Assembly: GCA_030426085.1 (NCBI GenBank)
Contig: JAUHYW010000023.1
Span: 1 to 64,000 of the forward strand
Length of the DNA stretch: 64,000 bases
DNA from: a bacterium
GTDB lineage: Bacteria; Myxococcota_A; Bradymonadia; UBA7976; UBA1532
Reading direction: 5' to 3'
Within the stretch, counting starts at the first letter, position 1. Every line of letters begins with the position of its first letter. A program made the position numbers and the translations under genes. Shown piece by piece: positions 733-58,110 of this stretch. The notes beneath the pieces were generated by a model. It had not been told where the DNA came from, did not search any database, and was given only the letters and a program-made list of their open reading frames with translations.

Positions 733-2889
733 ATGAGATCAGCCCGCCGCGCCCCGCCCCTGCCGCTCGCCGGGGCGCTCTGTCTGCTCACCGCGACGCT
801 CGCCGCCCCGGCGCTGGCCGGGCCGATGGTGCTCGACGGCACCTGGAAGGACGGCGCGCTCGCGCCGCCCGAAGCCGGGGCCGCCGCCCGGGACATCCTG
901 CTGGCCGAGGTCGAGGTCGAGGTCGAGGGCGATCACTACACCGCCCGCTGGAGCTGGCGCGCGGCGCCGGGCGACGGGGCGGCGACGATCGTGGTGCCGC
1001 TGCCCGCCGGCGCGGAAGCCGACGCCACGGCGCTGACCCGGGGCGACGCGCCGGTCGCCGGGTGGTTCCTGGACGCCGGCCCGGCCGAGAAAGCGCTGGC
1101 CGGGCTGGCCGAGGCCACCGGCGACACCGCGCTGCTCGCCGCCGTCGGGCGCCCGCTCTTCATCTCGACCCCCACCGCCCTCGAACCCCACGACCGCCTC
1201 ACCCTGCGCACCCGGGCCGCCGTCGCCGAGCGGGACGGCCTGCGGCGCATCGACCTGCCCCTGCCCCAGCGGGTGGGCGAGCGGGCGCCGCGGATCCGGG
1301 GGCGGCTGGTGATCGCGGCCGATGAGCCGGTCCGGGCCGTGATCTCGCCGACCCACCCCATCGACATCCACCGCCCCGATCCGCGCCGGGCCGCGGTGCG
1401 CCTGGGCATCGACCGGGCCACCGCCGACGGCGACTGGACGGTGATGTGGGCCGTCGACCGGGCCCCGCTGGGCCTGCGGCTGCTGACCCACCGCGACGAC
1501 GACGCCGACGGGGGCTGGTTCGCGCTGCTGGGCAACCCCTCCGGGGGCGACGGCGGGGCGCCCATCGCCAAGGACGTGGTGCTGGCGCTCGACACCAGCG
1601 GCAGCATGCGCGGCGAGAAGATGGAGCAGGCCCGGCTGGCGGTCGAGGCGGTCCTCGATCGGCTGGGGCCGCACGATCGCTTCGACATCGTGGCGTTCGG
1701 CACCGAGGTGAAGAGCTTCGCCGGGCGGCCGGTGCCCCGGGGCGACGGGGCGGTGGCCCGGGCCCGGGGCTTCGTCGAGGATCTGGTGGCCCACGGGCGC
1801 ACCAACATCGCCGACGCGCTGGCCGCGGCGCTGGCCGATCCGGCGCCCGATCGGCCGCGCATCGTGCTCTTCTTGACCGACGGCACCCCCACCGCCGGGC
1901 TGCGCGAGCCGGAGAAGATCGTCGACGGGCTGCCGAAGCGGGGCGAGGGGCAGGCCCGCGTCTTCGCGTTCGGGGTGGGGCACGACGTCAACGCCCACCT
2001 GCTGGACTCCATCGCCGAGCGCACCGGGGGCGACACGACCTATGTGAACCCGGGCGAGGCCATCGACGTGAAGGTCGCCGCGCTCTACGAGGGGCTGAGT
2101 CATCCGGTGCTGGAGGACGTCGTCGTCGACTTCGGTGAGCTCGAGGTCGAGGCGGTGCATCCGATGCGCATCCCGCTGCTGTTCCGGGGGCGGGATGTCC
2201 TGATATTGGGGCGCTACACCGGCTCGGGGCGGCATACGCTGACCCTGCGGGGCACGGTGCAGGGCAAGCCGCAGAGCCACGCGGTGACGGCGGACTTCCC
2301 GGCGCAGGCGCAGCCCGAGAACGGCTTCGTGGCGACGCTGTGGGCCACCCGCCGGGTGGGTGAGCTGCTGCGGCGCATGCGGCTGGCGGACGGCGACGGC
2401 GATCGCCAGAAGACGCTGGCTGAGATCGTCGAGCTGAGCCGGCGCTTCGGCATCCTGACCGAGTACACGGCGTTCATCGCCGACAGCGACGCGCCCATCG
2501 ACGCCGCCGAGGCCAACCGCACCGCGGCCGAGCTGCTCCAGCGGGCCAACGCGCAGCAGTCGGGGCAGTGGGCGGTGCGGCAGGCGGACAACGAGCAGGC
2601 GCTGCGCAAGCGCACGGTGGCCTCGACGGCGGGCAACGTCTACCGCGACCGGCAGGGCAAGACCCGCAAGGGCGCCAAGGTGCGCATGATGCACGGGCGG
2701 GCCTGGTACAAGCGCGACGGGCGGTGGGTCGAGGCCGAGGACGGCAAGCAGCGCACGCGGCGGCGGGTGAAGAAGTTCAGCAAGGCCTACATGGATCTGG
2801 TGCGGGAGAACGCCGACTTCGCCGAGGCGCAGCGGCTCGACGGCGACAGGACGATCAACCTGGACGGCGAGCAGGTGGAGGTCTACTGA
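733..2889 (+). CDS. VIT and VWA domain secreted protein
   Basis: A 718-residue protein with an N-terminal signal peptide (residues 1-29, cleavage near ALA-GP), so it is exported. Residues about 30-150 fit a vault/inter-alpha-trypsin (VIT) domain and residues about 280-450 a von Willebrand A domain. The metal-binding MIDAS motif DTSGSMRG is complete, with its first Asp at residue 287. The C-terminal third is charged and includes a basic stretch around KTRKGAKVRMMHGRAWYKR. Start choice: GAGGAGG lies 5 bases before the ATG. The stop overlaps the ATG of the next gene (TGATG), which indicates translational coupling. VIT-VWA proteins usually bind proteins or calcium; the ligand is unknown. Domains are assigned with high confidence, the role is not. 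Confidence 0.9.
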   Translation: MRSARRAPPLPLAGALCLLTATLAAPALAGPMVLDGTWKDGALAPPEAGAAARDILLAEVEVEVEGDHYTARWSWRAAPGDGAATIVVPLPAGAEADATALTRGDAPVAGWFLDAGPAEKALAGLAEATGDTALLAAVGRPLFISTPTALEPHDRLTLRTRAAVAERDGLRRIDLPLPQRVGERAPRIRGRLVIAADEPVRAVISPTHPIDIHRPDPRRAAVRLGIDRATADGDWTVMWAVDRAPLGLRLLTHRDDDADGGWFALLGNPSGGDGGAPIAKDVVLALDTSGSMRGEKMEQARLAVEAVLDRLGPHDRFDIVAFGTEVKSFAGRPVPRGDGAVARARGFVEDLVAHGRTNIADALAAALADPAPDRPRIVLFLTDGTPTAGLREPEKIVDGLPKRGEGQARVFAFGVGHDVNAHLLDSIAERTGGDTTYVNPGEAIDVKVAALYEGLSHPVLEDVVVDFGELEVEAVHPMRIPLLFRGRDVLILGRYTGSGRHTLTLRGTVQGKPQSHAVTADFPAQAQPENGFVATLWATRRVGELLRRMRLADGDGDRQKTLAEIVELSRRFGILTEYTAFIADSDAPIDAAEANRTAAELLQRANAQQSGQWAVRQADNEQALRKRTVASTAGNVYRDRQGKTRKGAKVRMMHGRAWYKRDGRWVEAEDGKQRTRRRVKKFSKAYMDLVRENADFAEAQRLDGDRTINLDGEQVEVY

Positions 2890-12264: not shown

Positions 12265-13395
12265 ATGCCGCCCGAGCCACCATCGGCCTACGAGCCGCTG
12301 TTGCTCGCCTGCCAGCAGATGCTGCGCCATCGGGAGCCCTTCGCCAAGGCCACCCTCGAGCGCTACATCCTGCGGCGGGTCGACGAGACGGTGGACAACC
12401 CGGCGCTGATGGGCCACCTGATCGCCGAGGCGCTGATGTCGCGCCTCGACCGCTCCCTGGTGGCCAGCAAGAACATCTACGTCGCCGACTTCGACATCCC
12501 CCAGATCGATCTCTTCTACGAGATGGCGACGGCCTACCCCCACATCTACCTGAGCCACCACCTGGCCAACACCGCCCTCGTCGACGAGATGGCGCCCCTC
12601 GAGGCGGTGAGCCTGCTCGAGATCGGCATCGGCAAGGGCACCCAGGTCGAGCAGCTCTTCGAGGCCCTCGCCCGCCACCCCCGGCGGGCCACCCGCCGGG
12701 TGCAGGTCATCGCGGTCGATCCCGATCCGGCGAACCTGCTCGACGCCGGCATCCGGCTGCGCACCCTGGCCGAGCGGCTGCCGTTCGCCGTCGAGATGAA
12801 GAGCCGCCTCGGCCTCATCGAGCGCCTGCCGCTCGAGCCGCTCGCCGCCCTCGCCCGCAATACGGACGGCGAGCTGGTGATCAACGCGGCCTACACCCTG
12901 CACCACATCATCCCCAGCCGGGACGACCCCCACGTGCGCACGACGGTGCTGCGTCGGCTGGCCCGGCTCCAGCCGCGGCTGATGAGCCTGATCGAGCCCG
13001 ACTCCGACCACCACGCCGAGTCGCTCACCCGTCGGTTCCACAACTGCTGGACCCACTTCATGGCGGTCTTCCGGCTGGTGGACGAGGCCCAGCTCGAGCC
13101 GGCGGTCCGGTTCAGCATCAAGGAGAAGTTCTTCGGGCGTGAGATCCGGGATATGTTCGGCGTCGCGGACGCGTTCCGCTGCGAGCGACACGAGCAGACC
13201 ACCCAGTGGGTCGAGCGCCTGCACCGCGCCGGCTTCGAGCCCGACACCCGCACGCCGGAGACCGGCGACCTGCCCGAGCGATGCTCGGCCGAAGTGTACC
13301 CCGGCCTGGTCCGGCTGGGGCATCGCGCGACCAACCTCATCTCGGTGATGCTCCAACGCCCCGCGCGGGGCGGGGAGAAGCGAGGTCAGTCATGA
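12265..13395 (+). CDS. Bacterial GRAS-domain protein
   Basis: A 376-residue cytoplasmic protein with the GRAS fold, a Rossmann methyltransferase-like fold known from plant regulators and some bacteria. Landmarks in order: YEPLLLACQQML at the N-terminus, LLEIGIGKGTQVEQLFEAL (about residues 117-135, the VHIID-like region), VIAVDPDP, LMSLIEPDSDHHAESLTRRF (matching the plant E-x-N-H-N...F-x-x-RF segment), FFGREIRDM (about residue 289-297, matching FGREIxN) and ERHEQTTQWVERLHRAGF (the RxE...W...L...AGF SAW-like end). The ATG at 12265 has GGAAG 9 bases upstream; an upstream in-frame ATG at 12232 has no site. The first gene of a coupled operon; its stop overlaps the next start (ATGA). It may bind a small molecule or act as a methyltransferase or switch partner; the activity is unknown. 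Confidence 0.8.
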   Translation: MPPEPPSAYEPLLLACQQMLRHREPFAKATLERYILRRVDETVDNPALMGHLIAEALMSRLDRSLVASKNIYVADFDIPQIDLFYEMATAYPHIYLSHHLANTALVDEMAPLEAVSLLEIGIGKGTQVEQLFEALARHPRRATRRVQVIAVDPDPANLLDAGIRLRTLAERLPFAVEMKSRLGLIERLPLEPLAALARNTDGELVINAAYTLHHIIPSRDDPHVRTTVLRRLARLQPRLMSLIEPDSDHHAESLTRRFHNCWTHFMAVFRLVDEAQLEPAVRFSIKEKFFGREIRDMFGVADAFRCERHEQTTQWVERLHRAGFEPDTRTPETGDLPERCSAEVYPGLVRLGHRATNLISVMLQRPARGGEKRGQS

Positions 13396-13931
13396 GAGAA
13401 GACGAGGAGAAGCCGGTCCGGGTGTTCGGGGCGCTGCTGGTGGGCTACGCCCAGGCGTGCGTCAACCTGAACATCGTCGCCGGCCGCCGGGGCGCCGAGC
13501 TGGTCGGCGGCCTCGAGGTCAACCGCTGGTATCCCCTCTCCCGCCTGCGCCGGCTCGAGCGGCTGGTGCTCGAGACCTACGAGAACTCGGGCCCCATCAT
13601 GGAGCGGGTCGGCATGGAGATGATGTTCGGCTGGTACCACTTCGGCCCCGGCCGGGATCTCATCCGCTCGGGGGCCGACTTCCTGCGCTTCCAGTCGGGC
13701 AGCGAGGGCTACGCCAGCGTCATCGACGGCCCCGACTCGATGCTCGGCGACTTCACCCTGTTGACCGAGGATCGCGAGCGGGGCCGGGCCACGCTGCGAT
13801 CGACGACCCCCCTCAACCGCGACATGGAGCGGGGGGTGCTCATCGGCGGCATGAAGGCGCCCGGCGATCTGGACTTCGTCGACGTGGCCTACATGCCCGA
13901 TCGGCAGGCATTCTCCATCGAGTATCACTGA
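13392..13931 (+). CDS. Small sensor-like protein, V4R/heme-NO-like layout
   Basis: A 179-residue protein without signal or membrane segments. The pattern GRRGAELVGGLEVNRWYPLSR followed by a helical region, then FRLQS-like beta strands and the closing GVLIGGMKAPGDLDFVDVAYM recalls the layout of V4R or myxobacterial heme-NO-binding-related sensor domains (helical bundle, then GxLxGxLxxxG and a final strand). I see this as a weak similarity. It overlaps the GRAS stop by 4 bases and is 11 bases before the phosphatase, so it is probably the input or adaptor of the module. There is no obvious heme-ligating His. Confidence 0.55.
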   Translation: MREDEEKPVRVFGALLVGYAQACVNLNIVAGRRGAELVGGLEVNRWYPLSRLRRLERLVLETYENSGPIMERVGMEMMFGWYHFGPGRDLIRSGADFLRFQSGSEGYASVIDGPDSMLGDFTLLTEDRERGRATLRSTTPLNRDMERGVLIGGMKAPGDLDFVDVAYMPDRQAFSIEYH

Positions 13932-13942
13932 GGCGGCGACCG

Positions 13943-14863
13943 ATGATCGAGCTCGACGAACTGCTGTCCATGCACGAACCGCCCGCCGATCTGGCGCTCT
14001 CACCGGCCGATCTGAAGCGGCTGTACTGGAAGTACCGGGGGCTGCTCAAAGACCAGCAGCGGGACCAGGCCTACTGGGCGGCGACCAACGACAACCTCAC
14101 CCAGGCGTTCCTCAAGCTCGACGAGAAGGAGAAGCACCTCGCCCGGGCCTACGAGATCATCCGGGACGATCTGCGGGTGGCCAGCCGCATCCAGCAGAGC
14201 CTGCTGCCGTCGAACTACAGCCCGCCCGAGCTGGACGTGGCGGTCTACAACCGCCAGCTCACCGACGTCGGCGGCGACTACTACGACTTCTTCCGCACCC
14301 GCTCGGGGCGGGCGGCGATCGGGCTGTTCGACATCTCGGGCCACGGGGTCTCGGCGGCGCTGGTGATGGCCTTCCTCAAGGCGCAGTTCACCCTGGCGTT
14401 GGACCACCTCGAGGCGCCGGGGGCCATCGTCGACGCGGTCAACCAGCGGTCGTACGGCTTTCTGCGCGAGGTCAAGAAGTACGCCACGGTCAACTTCGTG
14501 GTGCTCGATCACGACGCCCTGACCTACGCCGCCGGCGGGGGCTTCGGGCTGGTGATGCACCGGGGCGGGGTGTCGACGTTCGAGAAGCGCTCGCCCTTCC
14601 TCGGCCTGCGCCAGCGCACCTACCCCCAGTACACCCTGCCGTTCAACGAGGGCGACCTGCTGGTGATGTACACCGACGGCATCCCCGAGTCGCAGGACGC
14701 CGAGGGGCGGGACTACACCGTGCGCCGGCTCAACGACCTCATCGTCGAGCACGGCGACGAGCCGCCGGCCCGCATCCTCGAGCGGTGCATCGACGACTAC
14801 GAGTCCTTCCGGCACGAGGTCTCCGACGACGTCACGCTCGTCATCGCCAGGAGGAAGGCGTGA
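13943..14863 (+). CDS. SpoIIE/RsbU-type PP2C phosphatase (SiaA-like)
   Basis: A 306-residue soluble Ser/Thr phosphatase that would dephosphorylate a STAS-like antagonist in a partner switch. A coiled coil at residues about 45-95 ends in the linker ASRIQQSLLP that is typical of RsbU/SpoIIE proteins. Metal-binding Asps are present in VGGDYYD (Asp112), DISGHG (Asp130), YTDG (Asp245) and SDDVTL (Asp295). There is no HAMP or transmembrane part, unlike Pseudomonas SiaA, so the signal should come from the cytosolic partner proteins. It begins 11 bases after the sensor-like gene, and its stop overlaps the next GTG. Confidence 0.9.
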   Translation: MIELDELLSMHEPPADLALSPADLKRLYWKYRGLLKDQQRDQAYWAATNDNLTQAFLKLDEKEKHLARAYEIIRDDLRVASRIQQSLLPSNYSPPELDVAVYNRQLTDVGGDYYDFFRTRSGRAAIGLFDISGHGVSAALVMAFLKAQFTLALDHLEAPGAIVDAVNQRSYGFLREVKKYATVNFVVLDHDALTYAAGGGFGLVMHRGGVSTFEKRSPFLGLRQRTYPQYTLPFNEGDLLVMYTDGIPESQDAEGRDYTVRRLNDLIVEHGDEPPARILERCIDDYESFRHEVSDDVTLVIARRKA

Positions 14864-15396
14864 TCACCGAAGCCGATCTGGGGCAGACCCGGATGTCGAT
14901 CAGCTACACGTTCGCGCCGCTGCGCAACATCATCTGTGATCTGAGCGGGCTCATCGGCCGCTCGGTGCGCGAGCTGGTCGACGCCTTCTACCCCCCCGTG
15001 GCCGGGCAGCGGGTCGAGGTGCTCATCGCCGAGCTGGTCGACAACATCGTGCAGAACATCGCCGATCCCGAGAGCGAGATGAGCCTCGATCTGTCGGTCG
15101 AGGACGGCAGCCTGCATGTGCGCACCCGCAACGTCGCCCGCCGCGAGAGCTTCGAGAAAGTGCGGGATCACGTCGCCGCCATCCGGGCAGCCCGCGACGC
15201 GGGCACCTTGCAGGATCTCATGCGGCGGACCATCCGCGAGCGCCGCAAGGCCCGGCTGACCGGCGGCCTGGGCTTCATCCGGCTGGTGCACGAGTCCCGG
15301 TTCGACCTCGCGGTGGAGCACGACGACGGCGAGCTGGTCATCGACGCCTGGCTGGATATGAACGCGCTGGCTGACGAGAAGGGAGACGCCCGGTGA
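14860..15396 (+). CDS. SiaB/anti-sigma-like ATPase (DUF6272-like)
   Basis: A 178-residue GHKL-type kinase candidate that would phosphorylate the SiaC/STAS-like protein. The N-box is ELVDNIVQN (Asn62). A middle section, RNVARRESFEKVRDHVAAIRA, fits the GNxV...L...L linker of SiaB. The glycine motif TGGLGFIRLV (about residues 134-143) corresponds to the GxGLG box. The GTG start overlaps the phosphatase stop as GTGA and has AGGAGG 5 bases upstream. Whether it is an active kinase or only a binding switch cannot be told from sequence; the clear D-x-G G1 box of RsbW is not obvious, as in the SiaB family. Confidence 0.75.
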   Translation: MITEADLGQTRMSISYTFAPLRNIICDLSGLIGRSVRELVDAFYPPVAGQRVEVLIAELVDNIVQNIADPESEMSLDLSVEDGSLHVRTRNVARRESFEKVRDHVAAIRAARDAGTLQDLMRRTIRERRKARLTGGLGFIRLVHESRFDLAVEHDDGELVIDAWLDMNALADEKGDAR

Positions 15397-15800
15397 AGGT
15401 CCTCACCTACGGTGACATCATGCAGGGGGGGAGCAGCGTCTTCACCGCCACCGCCCGGCTGGAGGACGACTGGCTCGTGGTGAGCTTCTCCGGCGCCATC
15501 CGGGTCGACAACCCCCACGTTCAGCTCCAGGCGTTCATCGACGCCATCCAGCTCGAGCTCAAGGACAAGGCCGTCGGCGCGGTGACCCTCGAGTTCACCG
15601 ACCTCAAGTTCTGCAACTCCAACGGGTTCTACGTGATCATGGACGTCATCGAGTCGGTCTACGAGAACTCGGACGGCCCGGTGCACGTCCGCCGGCTGGA
15701 GCACGACGACTGGCAGCAGCAGACCCTGCCCATCCTGCTCGACCTCGGCTCGGAGGAGGTCCGGGAGCGCACCTCGTTCGAAGACGTGCGCAACGTCTGA
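15393..15800 (+). CDS. SiaC/STAS-like phospho-antagonist
   Basis: A 135-residue protein with the alpha/beta layout of STAS or DUF1987 (SiaC) proteins. The strand VTLEFTDLKF leads into CNSNGFYVIMDVIESVYE, where Ser76 sits at the position of the phosphorylated Ser/Thr of the family (SiaC has NTSS there). It would therefore be the target of the SiaB-like kinase and SiaA-like phosphatase. The GTG overlaps the upstream stop as GTGA with AAGGGAG upstream. It is the last gene of the operon, followed by a strong stem-loop. The downstream partner is not obvious: no diguanylate cyclase lies here, which leaves the GRAS or the sensor-like protein as the candidate client. Confidence 0.7.
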   Translation: MKVLTYGDIMQGGSSVFTATARLEDDWLVVSFSGAIRVDNPHVQLQAFIDAIQLELKDKAVGAVTLEFTDLKFCNSNGFYVIMDVIESVYENSDGPVHVRRLEHDDWQQQTLPILLDLGSEEVRERTSFEDVRNV

Positions 15801-15853: not shown

Positions 15854-16669
15854 ATGCCCCCCTCCCCCACGAGCCCCGCGCCGACGCACGCCGACCCCGG
15901 GCTGGCCGCCCCGCTCGGCGTGCGCCTCGACGGCGTCGGCCGCCGCTTCGGCGACCTCGACGCCCTGCGCGGCGTCTCGCTCGACCTCGCGCCGGGCCGC
16001 CTCGTCGCCTTCATCGGCCCCTCGGGCTGCGGCAAGACCACCCTGCTGCGCATCATCGGCGGGCTGGACCACGCCACCGCCGGCCGGGTGACCTACGACG
16101 GCGGCCCCCGCCCGCCCAGCGCGCTGAGCTTCGCCTTCCAGGACGCCCGGCTGCTGCCCTGGCGCTCGGTCCTGCGCAACGTCGCCCTGCCCCTCGAGCT
16201 GGCCGGCGCGCCCCGCCCCCAGCGGGAGGCCCGCGCCCGGGACATGCTCGCCCGGGTCGATCTGGCCGACTTCGCCGACGCCCGACCGCATACGCTCTCC
16301 GGGGGCATGCAGATGCGGGTCGCGCTGGCCCGGGCCCTCGTCACCCGCCCCCGGCTGCTGCTGCTCGACGAGCCCTTCGGCGCGCTGGACGCCATCACCC
16401 GGGTCGACCTCGACGACGAGCTGCGCCGGCTGTGGCGGGCCGATCCGATGACCGTGCTGCTCGTGACCCACTCGATCAGCGAGGCGATCTACCTCGCCGA
16501 TCGGGTCATCGTGCTCGCCCCCCGCCCGGGGCGGATCATCGACGACATCCCGGTCGACATCCCCCACGCGGCCCGCGCGCCCGCCGTGCGCACCACCCCC
16601 GACTTCGTGCAGCGGGTCGCCCGGGCCCAGGCGGCGCTCGAGCGGGGCGTGCGGGCGGCGGCCCGATGA
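15854..16669 (+). CDS. ABC importer ATPase (SsuB/TauB/ThiZ class)
   Basis: A 271-residue nucleotide-binding subunit energising an inner-membrane importer. It has Walker A GPSGCGKT (Lys61), a Q-loop in FAFQDARLLPW, the signature LSGGMQMR (Ser149), Walker B LLLLDEPFGALD and an H-loop VTHSISEAIYLADRV. FQDARLLPWRSV and DEPFGALD are typical of the nitrate/sulfonate/taurine/NMT1 class. The stop overlaps the ATG of the permease (ATGA). The first of five coupled genes that end with folate-pathway enzymes, so the substrate may be a pterin, a pyrimidine thiamine precursor or a similar compound. Confidence 0.9.
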   Translation: MPPSPTSPAPTHADPGLAAPLGVRLDGVGRRFGDLDALRGVSLDLAPGRLVAFIGPSGCGKTTLLRIIGGLDHATAGRVTYDGGPRPPSALSFAFQDARLLPWRSVLRNVALPLELAGAPRPQREARARDMLARVDLADFADARPHTLSGGMQMRVALARALVTRPRLLLLDEPFGALDAITRVDLDDELRRLWRADPMTVLLVTHSISEAIYLADRVIVLAPRPGRIIDDIPVDIPHAARAPAVRTTPDFVQRVARAQAALERGVRAAAR

Positions 16670-17448
16670 GGCGGCTGCTCGCGACCGCCGGCCCCCCGCT
16701 GCTGACCGTGGCCATCGCCGTCGGGCTGTGGCAGCTCGGGGTCACCCTGACCGGCGTCCCGGACTACCTGTGCCCGTCCCCCTTCGAAGTCGCCGCCGCC
16801 TTCGCCGAGCGCCCCGGACCGCTGCTGGCCGCCACCGGGCGCACCGCCGCCGCCACGCTGCTCGGCTTCGGCATCGCCGCGCTCCTGGGGGTGGCCATCG
16901 GCACGCTGCTGGCCTCGGTCGAGGCGCTGCGCCGGGGGGTCTACCCGCTGACCAACCTCTTGCAGATGGTGCCGGTGGTCGCGGTCGCCCCGCTGCTGAC
17001 GATCTGGTTCGGCTACGGCCTCAGCGCGGTGACCGCCTCGGCGTGCATCGTCGCGATCTTCCCGGTCATCGCCAACACCGTCGACGGCCTGCGCAGCGTC
17101 GATCCCCACCTGCGGGAGCTGTTCGACATCTACGGCGCCGGCCGGGCGCAGCGGTGGTGGGGGCTCGAGCTGCCCGCGGCCACCCCCAGCATCTTCACCG
17201 GCCTGCGCATCGCCGCCGGGCTGGCGGTCATCGGCGCGGTCGTCGGCGAGTTCGTCAGCGGGTTCGCCGACCACCGGGCGCCCATCGGCATCGTCATCCT
17301 GACCGCGATCCGCGAGGCGCGCACCGATCTGGTGTTCGCCGCCATCTTGTGCAGCGCGGCCGTCGGCTTCACCCTCTTCGGGCTGGTCAGCGGCGCAGGG
17401 CACCTCGTCCTGCGCCGGTGGCACCCGTCGAGCCGCTCGACGCCGTGA
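16666..17448 (+). CDS. ABC importer permease (SsuC/TauC/ThiX class)
   Basis: A 260-residue membrane protein with about six transmembrane helices. The EAA loop that contacts the ATPase is seen as ELFDIYGAGRAQRWWGLELPAATPS, in its usual place before the last helices. The start overlaps the upstream stop by 4 bases. Length and order fit BPD_transp_1 permeases of the NMT1/taurine family, which work as homodimers. Confidence 0.9.
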   Translation: MRRLLATAGPPLLTVAIAVGLWQLGVTLTGVPDYLCPSPFEVAAAFAERPGPLLAATGRTAAATLLGFGIAALLGVAIGTLLASVEALRRGVYPLTNLLQMVPVVAVAPLLTIWFGYGLSAVTASACIVAIFPVIANTVDGLRSVDPHLRELFDIYGAGRAQRWWGLELPAATPSIFTGLRIAAGLAVIGAVVGEFVSGFADHRAPIGIVILTAIREARTDLVFAAILCSAAVGFTLFGLVSGAGHLVLRRWHPSSRSTP

Positions 17449-17464
17449 GCTCGAAGGAGGACCG

Positions 17465-18433
17465 ATGACCCCCCGCTCCCTGCTGCTGGCCGCCCTGGCC
17501 CTGGCCCTGGCGGCCGGCTGCAAGTCGAAGGACCGCGCCGAGGGCCCCGACGCGCCGACGACGATGCGGCTCCAGCTCAACTGGGTGCCCGAGCCCGAGT
17601 TCGGCGGCCTCTACGCCGCGCAGAAGCAGGGCCTGTACCGGGCCGCGGGCCTCGAGGTCGAGCTGATCAAGGGCAGCGCCGGGGTGCCCTCGGCCCAGCT
17701 CGCGGCGAGCGGCAAGGTCGAGTTCGCCGTCGTCACCGGGGCCGAGGTCATCCGCATGCGGACCCGGGGGGCCGATCTGGTCGCGCTGTACGCCCAGTTC
17801 CGCACCTCGCCCCGGGGGATCGTCGTGCACCGCGACAGCCCCTACAAGTCGCTCGAGGCCCTGTGGAAGAGCGACGCCACCGTGGTGCTCGAGCCGGGGC
17901 TGCCCTTCGCCCGGTGGCTGGACAAGCAATACGGCGGGCAGAACCTGGAGCGGGTGCCGTCCACCGGCAACCTCGCCGGGTTCATGGCCGACAAGGGGCT
18001 GGCCCAGGCGGTGTTCGTCTTCGCCGAGCCGGTCGAGCTCGAGCGGCGGGCGGTGCCGGTGCGCATCCTCGACGTGGCCGACACCGGCTTCAACCCGTAC
18101 GAGGCGATCATCGTCACCCGCCGGGCGTACCTCGAGGCCAACCGGGCGAAGGTGAAGGCGTTCGTCGACGCCACCCGGGCCGGCTGGGCGGCCTACCTCG
18201 CCGATCCGGGCCCGACCAACGCGGTGATGGCCGAGCTGAACCCGGCGATGAGCAAGGCCGCGATGGACACCTCGATCCGCCTCGCCGAGCGCTACATCAA
18301 GGGCATCGACAAAGGCCCGCCGGGCTCGATGACCACCGCCCGCTGGGCCGCGCTCGTCGACCAGCTCGTGCGGCTGGGCGAGATCGAGGCGAAGCAGGCC
18401 CCGCCGCCCGACTCGCTGTATGTCGACCTCTGA
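17465..18433 (+). CDS. NMT1/THI5-like substrate-binding lipoprotein
   Basis: A 322-residue lipoprotein (lipobox LAAGC, Cys19) that captures the substrate for the adjacent permease. The typical beginning of the mature domain, LQLNWVPEPEFGGLYAAQKQGLY, is that of NMT1/THI5-like proteins, which bind pyrimidine thiamine precursors, riboflavin or related heterocycles. AAGGAGG lies 5 bases before the ATG. The 3' end overlaps the folB start by 14 bases, which is unusually long and ties transport to pterin metabolism. The substrate is not proven. Confidence 0.85.
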   Translation: MTPRSLLLAALALALAAGCKSKDRAEGPDAPTTMRLQLNWVPEPEFGGLYAAQKQGLYRAAGLEVELIKGSAGVPSAQLAASGKVEFAVVTGAEVIRMRTRGADLVALYAQFRTSPRGIVVHRDSPYKSLEALWKSDATVVLEPGLPFARWLDKQYGGQNLERVPSTGNLAGFMADKGLAQAVFVFAEPVELERRAVPVRILDVADTGFNPYEAIIVTRRAYLEANRAKVKAFVDATRAGWAAYLADPGPTNAVMAELNPAMSKAAMDTSIRLAERYIKGIDKGPPGSMTTARWAALVDQLVRLGEIEAKQAPPPDSLYVDL

Positions 18434-18809
18434 GCGACCGCCCGCGCCGGGCACCGTGCTCATCCGCGATCTCGAGATCCGGTGCATCGTCGGCGTGCTG
18501 CCCCGCGAGCGGATCGAGCCGCAGATCCTCCGGCTCGACGTCGAGCTCGATCTGGACCTCGCCCCCGCCGCCGCCGCCGAGGCCGTCGAACACACCGTGG
18601 ACTACGCCGCCGTCGCCGCCTGGCTGGCCGAGCGGGCGCTGTCCCGGGCCTATCGGCTCGTCGAGACGCTGGCCGTCGAGAGCTGCCGCGACCTGCTCGC
18701 CCGCCACCCGTCGCTCACCCGGGCGGCGATCACCGTCAAGAAGCCGGCCGCCGTGCCCGCCGCTGCGTGGGTCGGCTGCCGCTACGAAGCGCGCCGGAGC
18801 CCGCCATGA
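18420..18809 (+). CDS. folB: Dihydroneopterin aldolase family protein FolB
   Basis: A 129-residue cytoplasmic enzyme of the folate pathway, converting 7,8-dihydroneopterin to hydroxymethyl-dihydropterin and glycolaldehyde (or a family relative). Matches include IRDLEIRCIVGVLPRERIEPQ, LDVELDLDL, VDYAAVAAWLAE, RLVETLAVESCRDLL and the C-terminal ITVKKPAAVP with the conserved catalytic Lys. The ATG lies inside the end of the binding-protein gene in another frame. The stop overlaps the ATG of the SDR gene. Confidence 0.9.
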   Translation: MSTSERPPAPGTVLIRDLEIRCIVGVLPRERIEPQILRLDVELDLDLAPAAAAEAVEHTVDYAAVAAWLAERALSRAYRLVETLAVESCRDLLARHPSLTRAAITVKKPAAVPAAAWVGCRYEARRSPP

Positions 18810-19564
18810 TGAACATCTCGCCGAAGCCGATCGCGCTCGTCACCGGGGCCGCCCACCGCACGGGGCGGGCGCTGGCCGAGTCGCTCGGGCTCGACCGCTT
18901 CACCGTCTGGGTGCACTACGACACCTCGGCCGAGGCCGCCGAAGAGGTCGCCGACAGCATCGAGCGCGACGGCGGCCGGGTGCGGCTCGTCCGGGGCGAC
19001 CTCACCCGGCCCGACCAGACGGCGGCGATCATCGACCGCATCGCCGAGGTCGACGGCCGGATGGACGTCCTGGTGAACAACGTCGGCATCTACCGCACCG
19101 GCCCGCTCGCCGAATACGACCGGGAGGACTACCGCCAGACCCTCGCGGCCAACGTGCTGGGCCCGTTCGACCTCATACGCCGATCGCTGCCGCTCTTCCG
19201 GGCCTACGGGGGCAACATCATCAACATCGGCGCGGCGGGCATCGACTACAACGGCGCGGGGGGCAAGGCGGCGGCCTACTACAGCAGCAAGGCCGCGCTG
19301 CTCGTCCTGACCCGCAGCTTCGCCGAAGAGCTGGGGCCCCGGGGCATCCGGGTCAACATGATCTCGCCGGGGCACATCGACAACAGCGTCGACATCCCGC
19401 CCGACTTCGCCGAGACGGTGCCCCTGCGGCGGGCGGCGACCACCCTGGACATCTGCAACGCGATGCGGTGGCTGATCGACACCCGGCGCGCGGGCTACAT
19501 CACCGGCCAGAACATCCAGGTGGACGGGGGCATGATGCTCGGCCTCCGGGCCGATCGGTGGTGA
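18806..19564 (+). CDS. Pteridine-reductase/FolM-like SDR
   Basis: A 252-residue short-chain dehydrogenase. The dinucleotide motif is TGAAHRTG, that is TGxxxRxG, which marks pteridine reductase PTR1 and FolM (most SDRs have TGxxxGxG). NNVGIYRTG stands for the NNAG box, YYSSK holds the YxxxK catalytic pair, and ITGQNIQVDGG closes the domain. The usual catalytic Ser is not obvious (NIGAAG), as in FolM. Overlap with folB (ATGA) makes dihydropterin or dihydromonapterin reduction the likely role; a general SDR is the alternative. Confidence 0.8.
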   Translation: MMNISPKPIALVTGAAHRTGRALAESLGLDRFTVWVHYDTSAEAAEEVADSIERDGGRVRLVRGDLTRPDQTAAIIDRIAEVDGRMDVLVNNVGIYRTGPLAEYDREDYRQTLAANVLGPFDLIRRSLPLFRAYGGNIINIGAAGIDYNGAGGKAAAYYSSKAALLVLTRSFAEELGPRGIRVNMISPGHIDNSVDIPPDFAETVPLRRAATTLDICNAMRWLIDTRRAGYITGQNIQVDGGMMLGLRADRW

Positions 19565-22261: not shown

Positions 22262-23794
22262 TCAGAAGTCCAGGCCGCCGGTGGACTCCGGCTCATCCGC
22301 CGGCGCGGGCGGATCCGGCTGCGACGGCACCGTCGGACCGCGCTGATCGGACCCCGCCGACGGCGGCGCTGGTGTCCGGCGCCGGCTCCGTCGCTTGGGC
22401 GGCCGCCGCACCACCGGCGAGGGTGGCGCGATGTCGCCCCGAGCGTCGACCTGCGCATCGGGCGCGCCGGATCCGCCGCCCGCCGCCCCGTCGGGGCGCT
22501 CGACCAGCTCGATGACCCCCAGCGCCATGGCCGACGGGCCGTGGAGGTGCACCTCGACCGCGTCGTAGCCCGGGCGCTCGATCCGCAGCCAGCGGGCGGT
22601 CCCGCACGGGCGCTCCACCGGTAGCGGGGTCACCCCGAGCGGCGTCTGATCTTCGAACACCCCCGCCCCGGGCGGGTCGGTCGCCAGCCGCTCGACGCAG
22701 GGCTCGACCGTCCCCGGCGGCGCGCTCGTCGGGCGGCGGACGAGCGCCACCAGCGCCACCAGACCGGCGACGCCCACCACCACCCCGGCGGCGATCGGCT
22801 GCCACCGCCGGCGACCGGGCGGCTTCGGCAGCGCGGTCAGCGTCGAGCGACCGGAGCTCATGAGCCCGCTGCTCGGCGTCCCCCCGTACTCCGGCGTCGC
22901 CCGCAGGGCATCACGGGCGCTGCGGGCGTCGGCCGGCCGCTCCGAGCGCGCCTTGCGCAGCATCGCCGTGAGCCAGCCCTGGAGCTGCGGCGACAGCCCG
23001 TTGACCAGCGGCGGCTCGCGGTTGAGGTGCATCCAGGCCAGCCGGGCGTCGACCGGCATCGAGGCCAGCGCCGCCGGGACCGGGTCGTCGGCCTCGAACG
23101 GCCGCCGGCCGACCAGCATCTCGTAGACGATCAGGCCCAGCGCATAGAGGTCGGTGCGCCCGTCGGTCGGCTCGTTGCGGAACTGCTCGGGCGCCATGTA
23201 GGGCGGGGTGCCCATCGAGGCGTTGCGCCGGGTCAGCGCCGGCTCGGACGCCCGGGTCTGCTTGGCGATGCCGAAGTCGAGGACCTTGGTGACCTCGATG
23301 CCATCCTCCCGCACGAGGAACAGGTTGGCCGGCTTGAGGTCGCGGTGCACGATTCCGAGCGCGTGGGCCTCGACGAGCGCGGTGAGCACGTGATCGGCCA
23401 CCGCCAGCGCCCGGGACAGCGTCGGGGGTTCGGCGGCCAGGGCCTCGTCGAGCCCTCGTCCTTCGAGCAGCTCCATCACGACGTACGGCCGCTCGTCGGG
23501 CAGCAGGCCGCTGTCGAAGACGGGCACGGTGTGCAGGCTGCGGAGCTGAGCGATCGTCCGGATCTCACGATCGAAGCGGGCCCGCTCGCGGGGCGTCCCC
23601 AGGCCGGCGAGCACCTTCATGGCGCATGGCCGGTCGTGCAGGCGCACGTTCTGGCAGTGGTACACCGCGCCCATGCCGCCCCGCCCGAGCAGCCCGACGA
23701 CCCGGTAGCGGGCGTCGACCACGGCGCCGATCAGCGGGTCGGAGGCGGCAGCGTCACCGGCGGCGCGGTCGTCGGGGGTCGGGCGGTCGGGCAC
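22262..23794 (-). CDS. Ser/Thr protein kinase with PEGA-like extracytoplasmic part
   Basis: A 510-residue Hanks-type kinase. Kinase domain about residues 25-290: GRGGMGAVY, AMKVL (ATP-binding Lys), HRDLKPANLF (near residue 150), DFGIAK and GTPPYMAPEQ. One transmembrane helix around residues 328-348 is followed by a PEGA-like domain (ATDPPGAGVFEDQTPLG) and a disordered Pro/Arg-rich tail. The GTG start at 23794 lacks a good ribosome binding site and is 7 bases after the stop of the upstream kinase, so the two are probably translated together. The target is unknown. Confidence 0.9.
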   Translation of the reverse strand: MPDRPTPDDRAAGDAAASDPLIGAVVDARYRVVGLLGRGGMGAVYHCQNVRLHDRPCAMKVLAGLGTPRERARFDREIRTIAQLRSLHTVPVFDSGLLPDERPYVVMELLEGRGLDEALAAEPPTLSRALAVADHVLTALVEAHALGIVHRDLKPANLFLVREDGIEVTKVLDFGIAKQTRASEPALTRRNASMGTPPYMAPEQFRNEPTDGRTDLYALGLIVYEMLVGRRPFEADDPVPAALASMPVDARLAWMHLNREPPLVNGLSPQLQGWLTAMLRKARSERPADARSARDALRATPEYGGTPSSGLMSSGRSTLTALPKPPGRRRWQPIAAGVVVGVAGLVALVALVRRPTSAPPGTVEPCVERLATDPPGAGVFEDQTPLGVTPLPVERPCGTARWLRIERPGYDAVEVHLHGPSAMALGVIELVERPDGAAGGGSGAPDAQVDARGDIAPPSPVVRRPPKRRSRRRTPAPPSAGSDQRGPTVPSQPDPPAPADEPESTGGLDF

Positions 23795-23801
23795 GGCGGC
23801 G

Positions 23802-24923
23802 CTATCCGATGAACGCGTAGACGAGGCCCCCGGTGACCACGATGGCCAGAGCGAGGCCGATCGCCGTCGCCCACGCCGGCCACCCGGTCGCGCGGGGAGG
23901 CGGAGGCGCGAGGTCGATCACGGCCTCGACCGAGTTCGGCGTTCCGTGGGGGTCGTCGGGCACGTCGAGGTCGAAGTCGTGGATGTCGACCGGCACCGTC
24001 TTGGGGGCGAGCGCCTCGACCCGCCGGGGATCGAGCGCCGGCAGGCCCGCCCCCTCGGGCGTCGCCCGCAAGGCCTGCATGGCGTCGGTCGCGCTGCCGA
24101 ACCGGGCCTCGGGATCGCGCGCGCGCAGCCGGGCCACGACCCGCTCCAGAGCGTCGGAGACCCCCCCGATCGGGGCGGGCGGCGTGTGCAGGTGGTGCCA
24201 CAGATAGACCATCTGCCGCGCGCCGCGCACATGCAGCGGCGCCGAGTCGAGGCCATCGAAGGGGTGTCGCCCGGCGAGCATCACCGCCAGCAACATGCCG
24301 ACCGCGTACAGGTCGCTGCGCCCGTCGATGCGCCCGTGCTCGATCTGCTCGGGGGCCATGTAGCGCGGCGTACCGAGCAGCGTGCCCCGACCGGTGAGCC
24401 CCTGAGCGTCGCCCTGATAGGGCCGGGCGATGCCGAAGTCGAGCAGCACCGGCCGCTCGGCGTGCATCTCGTCGGCGGCGAGGAAGACGTTGGCCGGCTT
24501 GATGTCGCGGTGCACGATGCCGACGGTGTGGGCCACGGCCAGCCCCAGCAGAATCCCATCGGCCAGGGCGACCGCCCGGGGCGGCGCCAGACGCGCGGTC
24601 TGCGACAGCAGCGCGTCGAGCGAGCGCCCGTTCAGCAGCTCCATCACCAGATACGGGCGCCCGTCGGCGGTCACCCCGGTGTCGATCATCTTGACGATGT
24701 GCGGGCTGGTGAGCTGAGCGGTCAGCTCGACCTCGCGGATGAACCGGGCCCGCGCGATCCCGGTGGCGCCTGCGCCGGCGAGCAGCTTGACCGCGCACAC
24801 CCGCCCGCCGAGCCGCCGATCGAGCGCCCGATAGACCTCGCCCATGCCGCCCCGGCCCAGCGGCGCGAGCAACTCATAGCGGCCATCGGCGATGGTGCGC
24901 GGGGCCGGAGGGGGCTCAGCCAT
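23802..24923 (-). CDS. Tail-anchored Ser/Thr protein kinase
   Basis: A 373-residue Hanks-type kinase with the kinase domain at residues about 15-285 (GRGGMGEVY, AVKLL, HRDIKPANVF near residue 136, DFGIARP, GTPRYMAPEQ). The only membrane segment is the last 22 residues (AIGLALAIVVTGGLVYAFIG), with no extracytoplasmic sensor, so it is tail-anchored and probably senses through partners. The partner may be the kinase encoded downstream. It is divergent from the PEGA-domain gene at 25000 and shares its promoter region. Confidence 0.9.
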   Translation of the reverse strand: MAEPPPAPRTIADGRYELLAPLGRGGMGEVYRALDRRLGGRVCAVKLLAGAGATGIARARFIREVELTAQLTSPHIVKMIDTGVTADGRPYLVMELLNGRSLDALLSQTARLAPPRAVALADGILLGLAVAHTVGIVHRDIKPANVFLAADEMHAERPVLLDFGIARPYQGDAQGLTGRGTLLGTPRYMAPEQIEHGRIDGRSDLYAVGMLLAVMLAGRHPFDGLDSAPLHVRGARQMVYLWHHLHTPPAPIGGVSDALERVVARLRARDPEARFGSATDAMQALRATPEGAGLPALDPRRVEALAPKTVPVDIHDFDLDVPDDPHGTPNSVEAVIDLAPPPPRATGWPAWATAIGLALAIVVTGGLVYAFIG

Positions 24924-24938
24924 GGCGGTGGTTCGACC

Positions 24939-24966
24939 TTGTCAGCAACATCGCAGGCAGTATACT
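24939..24966 (+). promoter_or_regulatory. Sigma70-like promoter for the PEGA gene, palindromic -10
   Basis: TTGTCA (24939-24944), 16 bases, then TATACT (24961-24966), 33 bases before the ATG at 25000. The -10 element lies in the palindrome AGTATACT (24959-24966), so the same box could serve the divergent kinase genes, although a good -35 for that direction is not visible. Confidence 0.5.
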
Positions 24967-56814: not shown

Positions 56815-58110
56815 ATGCCCGACCCCGAACGCCCGCCCGACCGCTTCGACGCCGCGCTGCGCTTGGCGGTGGTGCGCTCCGAGCGCGTGCGGGCGGCGGT
56901 GCTCTCCAGCCTCCTGGGGGGTATGTCGCTGATCGTCGGCGGCATCTGGCTGGCCACCGCCGACGACTTCGCCGCGCTGTCGGCCCACGCCGGGCGACGC
57001 TACCTGAGCATGGTCGTGATCCTCGGCGGCGCGCTCTACGAGCTGATCTGGTGCCGCATCCTGGCCCGGTTCGAGGCCGCCGGGCGCCGACCCTCGGCGT
57101 GGCTGATGGGGGCCAACGCGGCGGTCGAGGTGAGCATCCCGACCCTGGCGATCGGCGTCTTCACCACCTTCGTGCCCCCGCCCGAAGCCCTGATCGCGCC
57201 CCCGTCGTACGGCTACCTGATCTTCGTGGCGCTGACCATCCTGCAGCTCGACCCCCGCATCTCGCTGTGGGCCGGGGCGCTGGCGGCGGCGCAGTACAGC
57301 GGGCTGGCGCTGTATCACGCCGACGCGATCGCGGCCCACCCCGGCAGCCTGCTGGGGGTGATGCCGGCCTATCACATCCGATCGCTGTTCTTCGCGCTGG
57401 GCGGGGTGTGCGCGGCGCTCGTCGCCCGCGAGCTGCGGCGGCGGGTGGTGGCGTCGATCACCTCGGTCCAGGAGCGCGAGCGGGTGCTCGATCTCTTCGG
57501 GCAGCACGTCTCACCCCAGGTGGCCCGGGCGCTGCTGGCCGGAGAGCCGGCCCAGGCCAGCCGGGAGGTCGTGGTGCTCTTCCTCGACGTGCGGGGCTTC
57601 ACCGCGTTCTCGGCCGCGCGTCGCCCGGACGCGGTCGTGGCCTACCTCGACGCGCTGCTCGGGCCGCTGATGAACACGATCCGGGCCCACCGGGGGGTGG
57701 TCGACAAGCTGCTCGGCGACGGCTTCATGGCGGTGTTCGGGGCCCCCGAGCCCGACCCCGACGCGGCGCCGAACGCGGTCCGGGCGGCGCGGGCGATGCT
57801 GGCGCAGGTCGACGCGCTGGTGGCCGGGGGGCTGCCGCCGACCCGGGTGGGCATCGGCATCCACAAGGGGCCGGCGGTGGCCGGGCTCATCGGCTCGGGG
57901 CGCCGACGGGAGTACACGGTCATCGGCGACACGGTGAACCTCGCGGCGCGGGTCGAGGGGGCGTGCAAGGCGCTCGACGCCGCGCTGCTGGTGACCGAGG
58001 CGGTGTGGCGGGCGCTGCCCCCGGCCGAGCGGGTGGGCGAGCGGCTGCCACAGACGCCGATCCGGGGCCGGGGCCCGGTGACGCTGTACCGGCTGACGCC
58101 GGGCGGGTGA
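56815..58110 (+). CDS. Membrane class III adenylate/guanylate cyclase
   Basis: A 431-residue enzyme making cAMP (or cGMP). Residues about 25-205 form an integral membrane domain of about six helices; a signalling linker QERERVLDLFGQHVSPQVA leads to the cyclase at about 240-425. Metal-binding Asp258 (LFLDVRG) and Asp302 (GDGFMAVFG), the adenine-selecting Lys298 (VVDKLLGDG), and the Asp/Thr site plus transition-state Asn/Arg in YTVIGDTVNLAARVE are all present, which favours ATP as substrate. Dimerisation is required for activity. The upstream gene is 20 bases away; the input signal is unknown. Confidence 0.9.
   Translation: MPDPERPPDRFDAALRLAVVRSERVRAAVLSSLLGGMSLIVGGIWLATADDFAALSAHAGRRYLSMVVILGGALYELIWCRILARFEAAGRRPSAWLMGANAAVEVSIPTLAIGVFTTFVPPPEALIAPPSYGYLIFVALTILQLDPRISLWAGALAAAQYSGLALYHADAIAAHPGSLLGVMPAYHIRSLFFALGGVCAALVARELRRRVVASITSVQERERVLDLFGQHVSPQVARALLAGEPAQASREVVVLFLDVRGFTAFSAARRPDAVVAYLDALLGPLMNTIRAHRGVVDKLLGDGFMAVFGAPEPDPDAAPNAVRAARAMLAQVDALVAGGLPPTRVGIGIHKGPAVAGLIGSGRRREYTVIGDTVNLAARVEGACKALDAALLVTEAVWRALPPAERVGERLPQTPIRGRGPVTLYRLTPGG

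Follow-up and report, generated by a model that had tools for sequence, protein, structure and literature searches.

The kinase and STAS protein encoded by the operon described here have their closest known relatives in the products of slr1658 and slr1659 of Synechocystis (NCBIfam NF047703 and NF047705), although the operon proteins score far under the curated cut-offs of these families. Gene slr1658 is on record as belonging to a putative two-component system; when it is lost, recovery from iron limitation is impaired and Pgr5 is up-regulated (PMC7555055). The literature that we found reports no GRAS, cyclase or SENS partner (SENS, the product of the second gene, see below) of slr1658-slr1659.

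In the SiaABCD system of Pseudomonas aeruginosa, a SpoIIE/PP2C phosphatase and a kinase act on residue T68 of SiaC, located in the peptide LLYLNTSSIK (PMC7647112, PMC8457831). The phosphatase/kinase/STAS-like set is common to both systems, as is a nucleotide cyclase encoded within the operon, which in SiaABCD is the output. However, the operon type described here differs in that (i) it has a separate sensor protein, whereas SiaA has its own sensor region, (ii) its optional sixth gene encodes a class III adenylate-type cyclase, whereas SiaD is a diguanylate cyclase, and (iii) it includes a GRAS protein, which is lacking in Sia. The RsbRST/RsbVW and SpoIIAA/AB systems likewise consist of a PPM phosphatase, a GHKL kinase and a STAS substrate, but the present operon is devoid of a sigma factor and its STAS protein has N-S rather than D-S at the acceptor site.

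To our knowledge, little or no biology has been assigned to bacterial GRAS proteins. They share with plant GRAS proteins (PF03514) a Rossmann methyltransferase-like fold, and the operon protein matches DELLA, SCL3, SCR and SHR; it belongs to a clade distinguished by an intact SAM motif and a fixed set of signalling partners. The methyltransferase-like nature of the bacterial proteins was proposed in 2012, according to the passage of PMC4279901 that cites Zhang, Iyer and Aravind. Literature searches for GRAS together with SpoIIE, STAS or anti-sigma factors returned no paper mentioning GRAS, and a search for DUF6272 returned no paper. The operon is apparently a conserved variant of partner switching undescribed in the literature searched, which excluded the 2012 paper on bacterial GRAS proteins.

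Genetic organization of the operon

The window (the whole stretch of 64,000 nucleotides analyzed) contains the following five genes:

12265..13395, plus strand: GRAS-domain protein, 376 aa (PF03514, E 5.6e-35), with motif E119-I-G-I-G-K-G-T-Q; probable SAM-dependent methyltransferase/effector
13392..13931, plus strand: SENS, putative input protein, 179 aa; H-NOX/TRAPP fold predicted (AlphaFold model)
13943..14863, plus strand: SpoIIE/PPM-type phosphatase, 306 aa (PF07228 at residues 121-305, E 2.2e-29), with an N-terminal helical domain of ~90 residues (NDOM)
14860..15396, plus strand: GHKL-type kinase of the DUF6272 / slr1658-SiaB kind, 178 aa (PF19788), with E58/N62/N66 and GGLG
15393..15800, plus strand: slr1659-type STAS switch protein, 135 aa (NCBIfam slr1659, E 1.3e-6); Ser76 is the probable phospho-acceptor

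The junctions between consecutive genes measure -4, +11, -4 and -4 bases, in agreement with the 4-base overlaps and 11-base gap reported in the initial annotation of this DNA, all five ORFs of which were recovered. The operon yielded neither a sigma factor nor a DNA-binding domain. The sequence itself shows the five genes with their order and conservation, the residues for catalysis and phosphate acceptance, the SAM motif and the recurrence of SENS and NDOM as modules; the SENS fold is a prediction.

Conservation and distribution of the five-gene order

GRAS genes were detected in 17 of 379 sampled genomes of the phylum. Profiles built from the window proteins revealed the full GRAS-SENS-SpoIIE-kinase-STAS set, on one strand and mostly with overlaps or short gaps, in 11 of these 17; the remaining six GRAS genes have neither SENS nor the SpoIIE-kinase-STAS trio alongside. 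SENS is present in 13 of the 379 genomes and co-occurs with GRAS in 11, with ~0.6 expected (Fisher p 2e-15, ignoring shared ancestry).

A scan of ~85,000 species genomes identified 18 operon-type GRAS loci (12 assigned by title or placement to Myxococcota/Deltaproteobacteria, six to Spirochaetota). Each of them runs on into SENS and, up to the contig end, the remaining genes. Two of the Spirochaetota loci are continued on another contig of the same genome: L059 by L084 (exact end overlap of 121 bases) and L060 by L085 (overlap with one mismatch). In another Spirochaetota genome (L096), the C-terminal end of GRAS lies at the contig edge and is followed by the other four genes. Together with L096 and the window, the scan loci give a total of 20 genomes (13 Myxococcota-type and seven Spirochaetota). 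The initial annotation would have fallen had the five genes not stayed together in related genomes; their order is kept at every one of these loci wherever it is visible.

Nearly all of the 20 genomes are metagenome-assembled, but recovery of the same operon from independent assemblies argues against a binning artefact. The Spirochaetota sequences occupy two places in the clade of operon GRAS proteins, so that a transfer of the operon between phyla is probable. In two phyla, a bacterial relative of the plant growth regulators (GRAS/DELLA) thus has a sensor, a phosphatase, a kinase and a phospho-switch as its stable operon partners.

Phosphatase, kinase and STAS protein

The metal-binding Asp residues, N-box Asn62, GGLG motif and Ser76 named in the initial annotation are all present. 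Across 11 aligned orthologous operons, phosphatase Asp112, Asp130, Asp245 and Asp296, as well as kinase Glu58, Asn62, Asn66 and GGLG, are invariant or nearly so, and the CNSNG core of the STAS motif (FCNSNGF, containing Ser76, in the window) is invariant. The set has the sequence hallmarks of a general partner-switching module, i.e. PPM metal Asps, the GHKL N-box and G-box, and a STAS Ser/Thr at a helix start. Ser76, which aligns by eye with Thr68 of SiaC (in LNTSS), is the probable phospho-acceptor.

Comparison with protein families placed the module more precisely. The kinase just reaches the gathering score of DUF6272 (PF19788; 27.2 bits, cut-off 26.6, E 3.4e-6) and lies below the curated cut-offs of both the SiaB family (NF038262; 23.3 bits, cut-off 85, E 3.8e-5) and the slr1658 superfamily (22.1 bits, cut-off 100, E 8e-5). 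The latter is the commonest kinase match, found in 10 of the 11 orthologues (best E 2.6e-12). The window STAS protein has no match in Pfam and scores best against the NCBIfam slr1659 superfamily (28.6 bits, below the curated cut-off of 100; E 1.3e-6). The SiaC family (PF09345) is not matched by the window STAS protein and is matched weakly by two of the 11 orthologues (best E 0.006). Since the kinase is nearest to slr1658, the module is best described as slr1658/slr1659-like, a sister rather than a member of SiaB/SiaC. The initial designation "Sia/Rsb-like" was accordingly right as to a partner switch with SpoIIE, SiaB-like and STAS components, but slr1658/slr1659 are the nearer relatives of kinase and STAS, albeit below the curated cut-offs.

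The GRAS protein

The identification of the first gene product as a GRAS protein, which the initial annotation had made dependent on a match to the GRAS profile, is confirmed by a score of 121.4 bits against PF03514 (Pfam cut-off 27), and a GRAS profile search found plant DELLA proteins at E 2e-29. With an AF2 model of modest quality (mean pLDDT 71), used for the overall fold only, plant GRAS structures ranked first, followed by SAM methyltransferases. The operon GRAS proteins form one clade (support 99/100), separate from standalone GRAS proteins and from the TerB-containing GRAS proteins of loci L061 and L069.

Motif I, [E/D]xGxGxGxQ, is present in every operon GRAS row of the alignment that covers this region, and all rows covering both sites combine [E/D]xGxGxG with an acidic residue after strand 2, the pattern expected of Rossmann methyltransferases. 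Plant DELLA proteins have DFGLKQG at the place of motif I, i.e. they have lost the SAM-binding ExGxGxG. As judged from these motifs, the operon GRAS protein retains a methyltransferase-like cofactor site. Its most likely function is that of a SAM-dependent methyltransferase acting on a small molecule; an active site with substrate specificity was not recognized in it. The question of why plants made hormone regulators from a methyltransferase-like fold becomes directly testable with a fixed bacterial partner set of mostly known biochemistry.

Two loci carry a second GRAS gene downstream of the operon, beyond a Ser/Thr kinase gene (L061:11498-13318 and L069:12771-15527; the TerB fusion was checked in L061). 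At L071:6170-7951, a PAS-Hpt-HATPase protein with a phosphatase-type NDOM is encoded directly upstream of GRAS.

SENS and the N-terminal domain of the phosphatase

SENS has no match in Pfam, even at E 10. Its AlphaFold model (pLDDT 81.6) matched H-NOX domains over nearly the whole length (Foldseek E 1e-5), with TRAPP/Bet3 next, and a comparison with VIA gave Z 13.9 and rmsd 3.3 over 161 aligned residues, consistent with an H-NOX fold. A profile search against solved structures gave only chance matches, so that the fold assignment rests on the predicted structure.

SENS shares with H-NOX, V4R and TRAPP (Bet3) proteins this predicted fold and its use as an input domain. TRAPP, V4R and H-NOX folds hold hydrophobic ligands or haem. 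However, in contrast to haem-binding members, the window protein has no histidine at residues 94-120, where the haem ligand of H-NOX is located (a region placed by secondary structure rather than coordinate superposition), and an alignment of 26 relatives shows no conserved histidine there. The YxSxR motif expected at the end of strand 2 is likewise absent from the window protein and not conserved in the relatives. Canonical haem binding by SENS is therefore unlikely.

SENS-like proteins also occur outside the trio, where they are joined to other outputs. In L073 and L074, SENS lies upstream of a Ser/Thr kinase bearing an NDOM of ~90 residues like that of the operon phosphatase. The following fusions were found in Spirochaetota:

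L095:7584-9191: SENS-like domain fused to NDOM-GAF-PAS
L097:8224-9546: SENS-like domain fused to NDOM-GGDEF
L099:6354-8372: SENS-like domain fused to HisKA-HATPase-receiver (hybrid histidine kinase)

Its recurrence in fusion with GGDEF, histidine-kinase and GAF-PAS proteins indicates that SENS is a true input domain; the H-NOX-fold family to which it belongs has no entry in Pfam. No operon-type GRAS gene adjoins these SENS genes, which suggests that SENS and NDOM form an input unit while GRAS goes with the switch. We infer that SENS acts on the phosphatase via NDOM. The alternative raised in the initial annotation, in which GRAS itself senses a ligand for the switch, has become less likely, as the product of the second gene is itself a sensor domain and recurs with different outputs where GRAS is lacking.

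An adenylate-type cyclase as an optional sixth gene

The downstream side is visible in 18 operons, and in six of these the STAS gene is directly followed by a gene for a class III adenylate-type cyclase, which either overlaps it or lies 37 bases away:

L056:6544-7710: adenylate-type cyclase after STAS
L057:11672-12838: adenylate-type cyclase after STAS
L062:11496-12632: adenylate-type cyclase after STAS
L068:11593-12765: adenylate-type cyclase after STAS
L084, about 2046-2864, minus strand: adenylate-type cyclase after STAS
L085:443-1708: adenylate-type cyclase after STAS

The substrate-specifying residues of these proteins are Lys (in KTIGD/KTSGD) and Asp (in FDIWG), the pair characteristic of adenylate cyclases. 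Some of the six have a PAS-like N-terminal part. All six operons carry GRAS too, and the cyclase occupies the place of SiaD in siaABCD; no diguanylate cyclase was found in any operon. The initial annotation, which held that there is no cyclase and that GRAS takes the free place, is correct in that none lies beside the window operon, but the presence of both genes in 6/18 operons indicates that GRAS is not a stand-in for the cyclase.

Elsewhere in the window, a class III cyclase domain (57484-57966, E 7e-11) is encoded within a frame of 626 residues ~42 kb from the operon. The best cyclase of the window genome (E 1e-62) was considered as the missing sixth gene and rejected: it is a protein of 967 residues with a cNMP-binding domain, encoded on another contig, and nothing links it to the operon.

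A GRAS-free variant of the switch

The STAS protein as query gave no match among plasmids. In genomes it revealed four members of a single genus (10.8-13.4 Mb) with loci that have a STAS match at E ~1e-64 and the trio, from which GRAS and SENS are absent:

L119, L120, L121 and L122 (e.g. L120:2359-9069): GRAS-free variant loci

The variant run consists of genes for (i) a fusion of slr1659-type STAS (E 1e-8) with a UbiE-like SAM methyltransferase, at the head, (ii) Cache-HAMP-SpoIIE, (iii) a DUF6272-STAS fusion, (iv) SpoIIE, (v) the kinase and (vi) STAS. The N-terminal domain of the variant SpoIIE is divergent, matching NDOM only at E 5e-4 to 2e-5, which would be expected in the absence of SENS if NDOM docks SENS. 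On sequence comparison, the variant swaps the sensor and the methyltransferase for unrelated equivalents and retains the trio. The clearest pointer to methylation as a possible output of the switch is the STAS-methyltransferase fusion, which is confined to one genus, lies at least 150 bases before the next frame and has Asn at the place of Ser76 in its STAS part.

Proposed mechanism

We propose, with a probability of roughly 55%, a self-contained partner-switching operon with SENS as input, in which the phospho-state of STAS controls GRAS, most likely a methyltransferase. The signal would act on the H-NOX-fold protein SENS, which would work through NDOM at the N-terminus of SpoIIE; this phosphatase and the opposing DUF6272/slr1658-type kinase would set the phosphorylation of STAS at Ser76; and one phospho-form of STAS would bind and switch GRAS. 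In some genomes the adenylate-type cyclase may be a second STAS output. The direction of signalling, the STAS-GRAS contact, the methyltransferase activity and the identity of ligand and substrate are inferred.

The role of GRAS is the part on which the evidence divides. GRAS accompanies the trio in 20/20 genomes to the extent that the contigs cover the locus, and the STAS phospho-state, already put forward in the initial annotation, seems its most likely controller. Somewhat more tentatively, at rather less than even odds, GRAS may be the effector of the partner switch in the specific sense of a SAM-dependent methyltransferase turned on or off by STAS phosphorylation. The distance correlation between GRAS and SENS (0.91, the highest) exceeds that between GRAS and STAS (0.74; 11 thinned loci), which counts against control by STAS and fits a GRAS protein on the input side, methylating or making a hydrophobic small molecule sensed by SENS, with the output of the switch elsewhere (the cyclase, or an unlinked target in the window genome). 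Such an arrangement would agree with the position of GRAS, always directly before SENS and often with a 4-base overlap, with the joint absence of the two genes from the variant operon, with the ligand-holding capacity of the TRAPP/V4R/H-NOX folds, and with the six operons that own a separate plausible output in their cyclase. However, SENS-like proteins fused to or paired with kinase, GGDEF or HisKA modules work without an adjoining operon-type GRAS gene, and the fusion of a methyltransferase to STAS in the variant operon points to the output side. For these two reasons a downstream role of GRAS is judged likelier and the input-side role unlikely.

It is more doubtful still that GRAS is non-catalytic and acts, as in plants, as a SAM- or ligand-binding scaffold or transcription co-factor sequestered and released by STAS. 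Plant GRAS proteins do function mainly via protein contacts, and STAS switches classically serve for sequestration in the style of anti-sigma factors, but the operon GRAS keeps the SAM-binding motif that plant DELLA proteins have lost and has neither a sigma factor nor a DNA-binding domain beside it. The enzyme set SpoIIE-kinase-STAS is also that of a plain SiaABCD-type system with the diguanylate cyclase replaced by GRAS, as first annotated; this is highly improbable, given the coexistence of GRAS and cyclase in six orthologous operons and the scores of kinase and STAS below the SiaB and SiaC cut-offs.

If control of GRAS by STAS is correct, the phosphatase/kinase/STAS switch gains a methylation output, and bacterial relatives of DELLA/SCARECROW proteins are placed in a signal-transduction pathway whose small-molecule sensor is a distinct protein. 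The possible outputs of STAS switches are extended by a methyltransferase and by a cyclase of the cAMP type.

Genes flanking the operon

Ser/Thr kinase genes are frequent near the operons but were rejected as operon parts, as these genomes contain many such kinases and the side on which they lie varies. In the window, two neighbouring Ser/Thr protein kinase frames are found at 22265-24941 (minus strand). The operon is followed at 15854-19564 by genes for an ABC transporter (ATPase, permease and NMT1-type binding protein) and then by two genes, read from the ORF list only, that seem to encode a FolB-like protein and an SDR.
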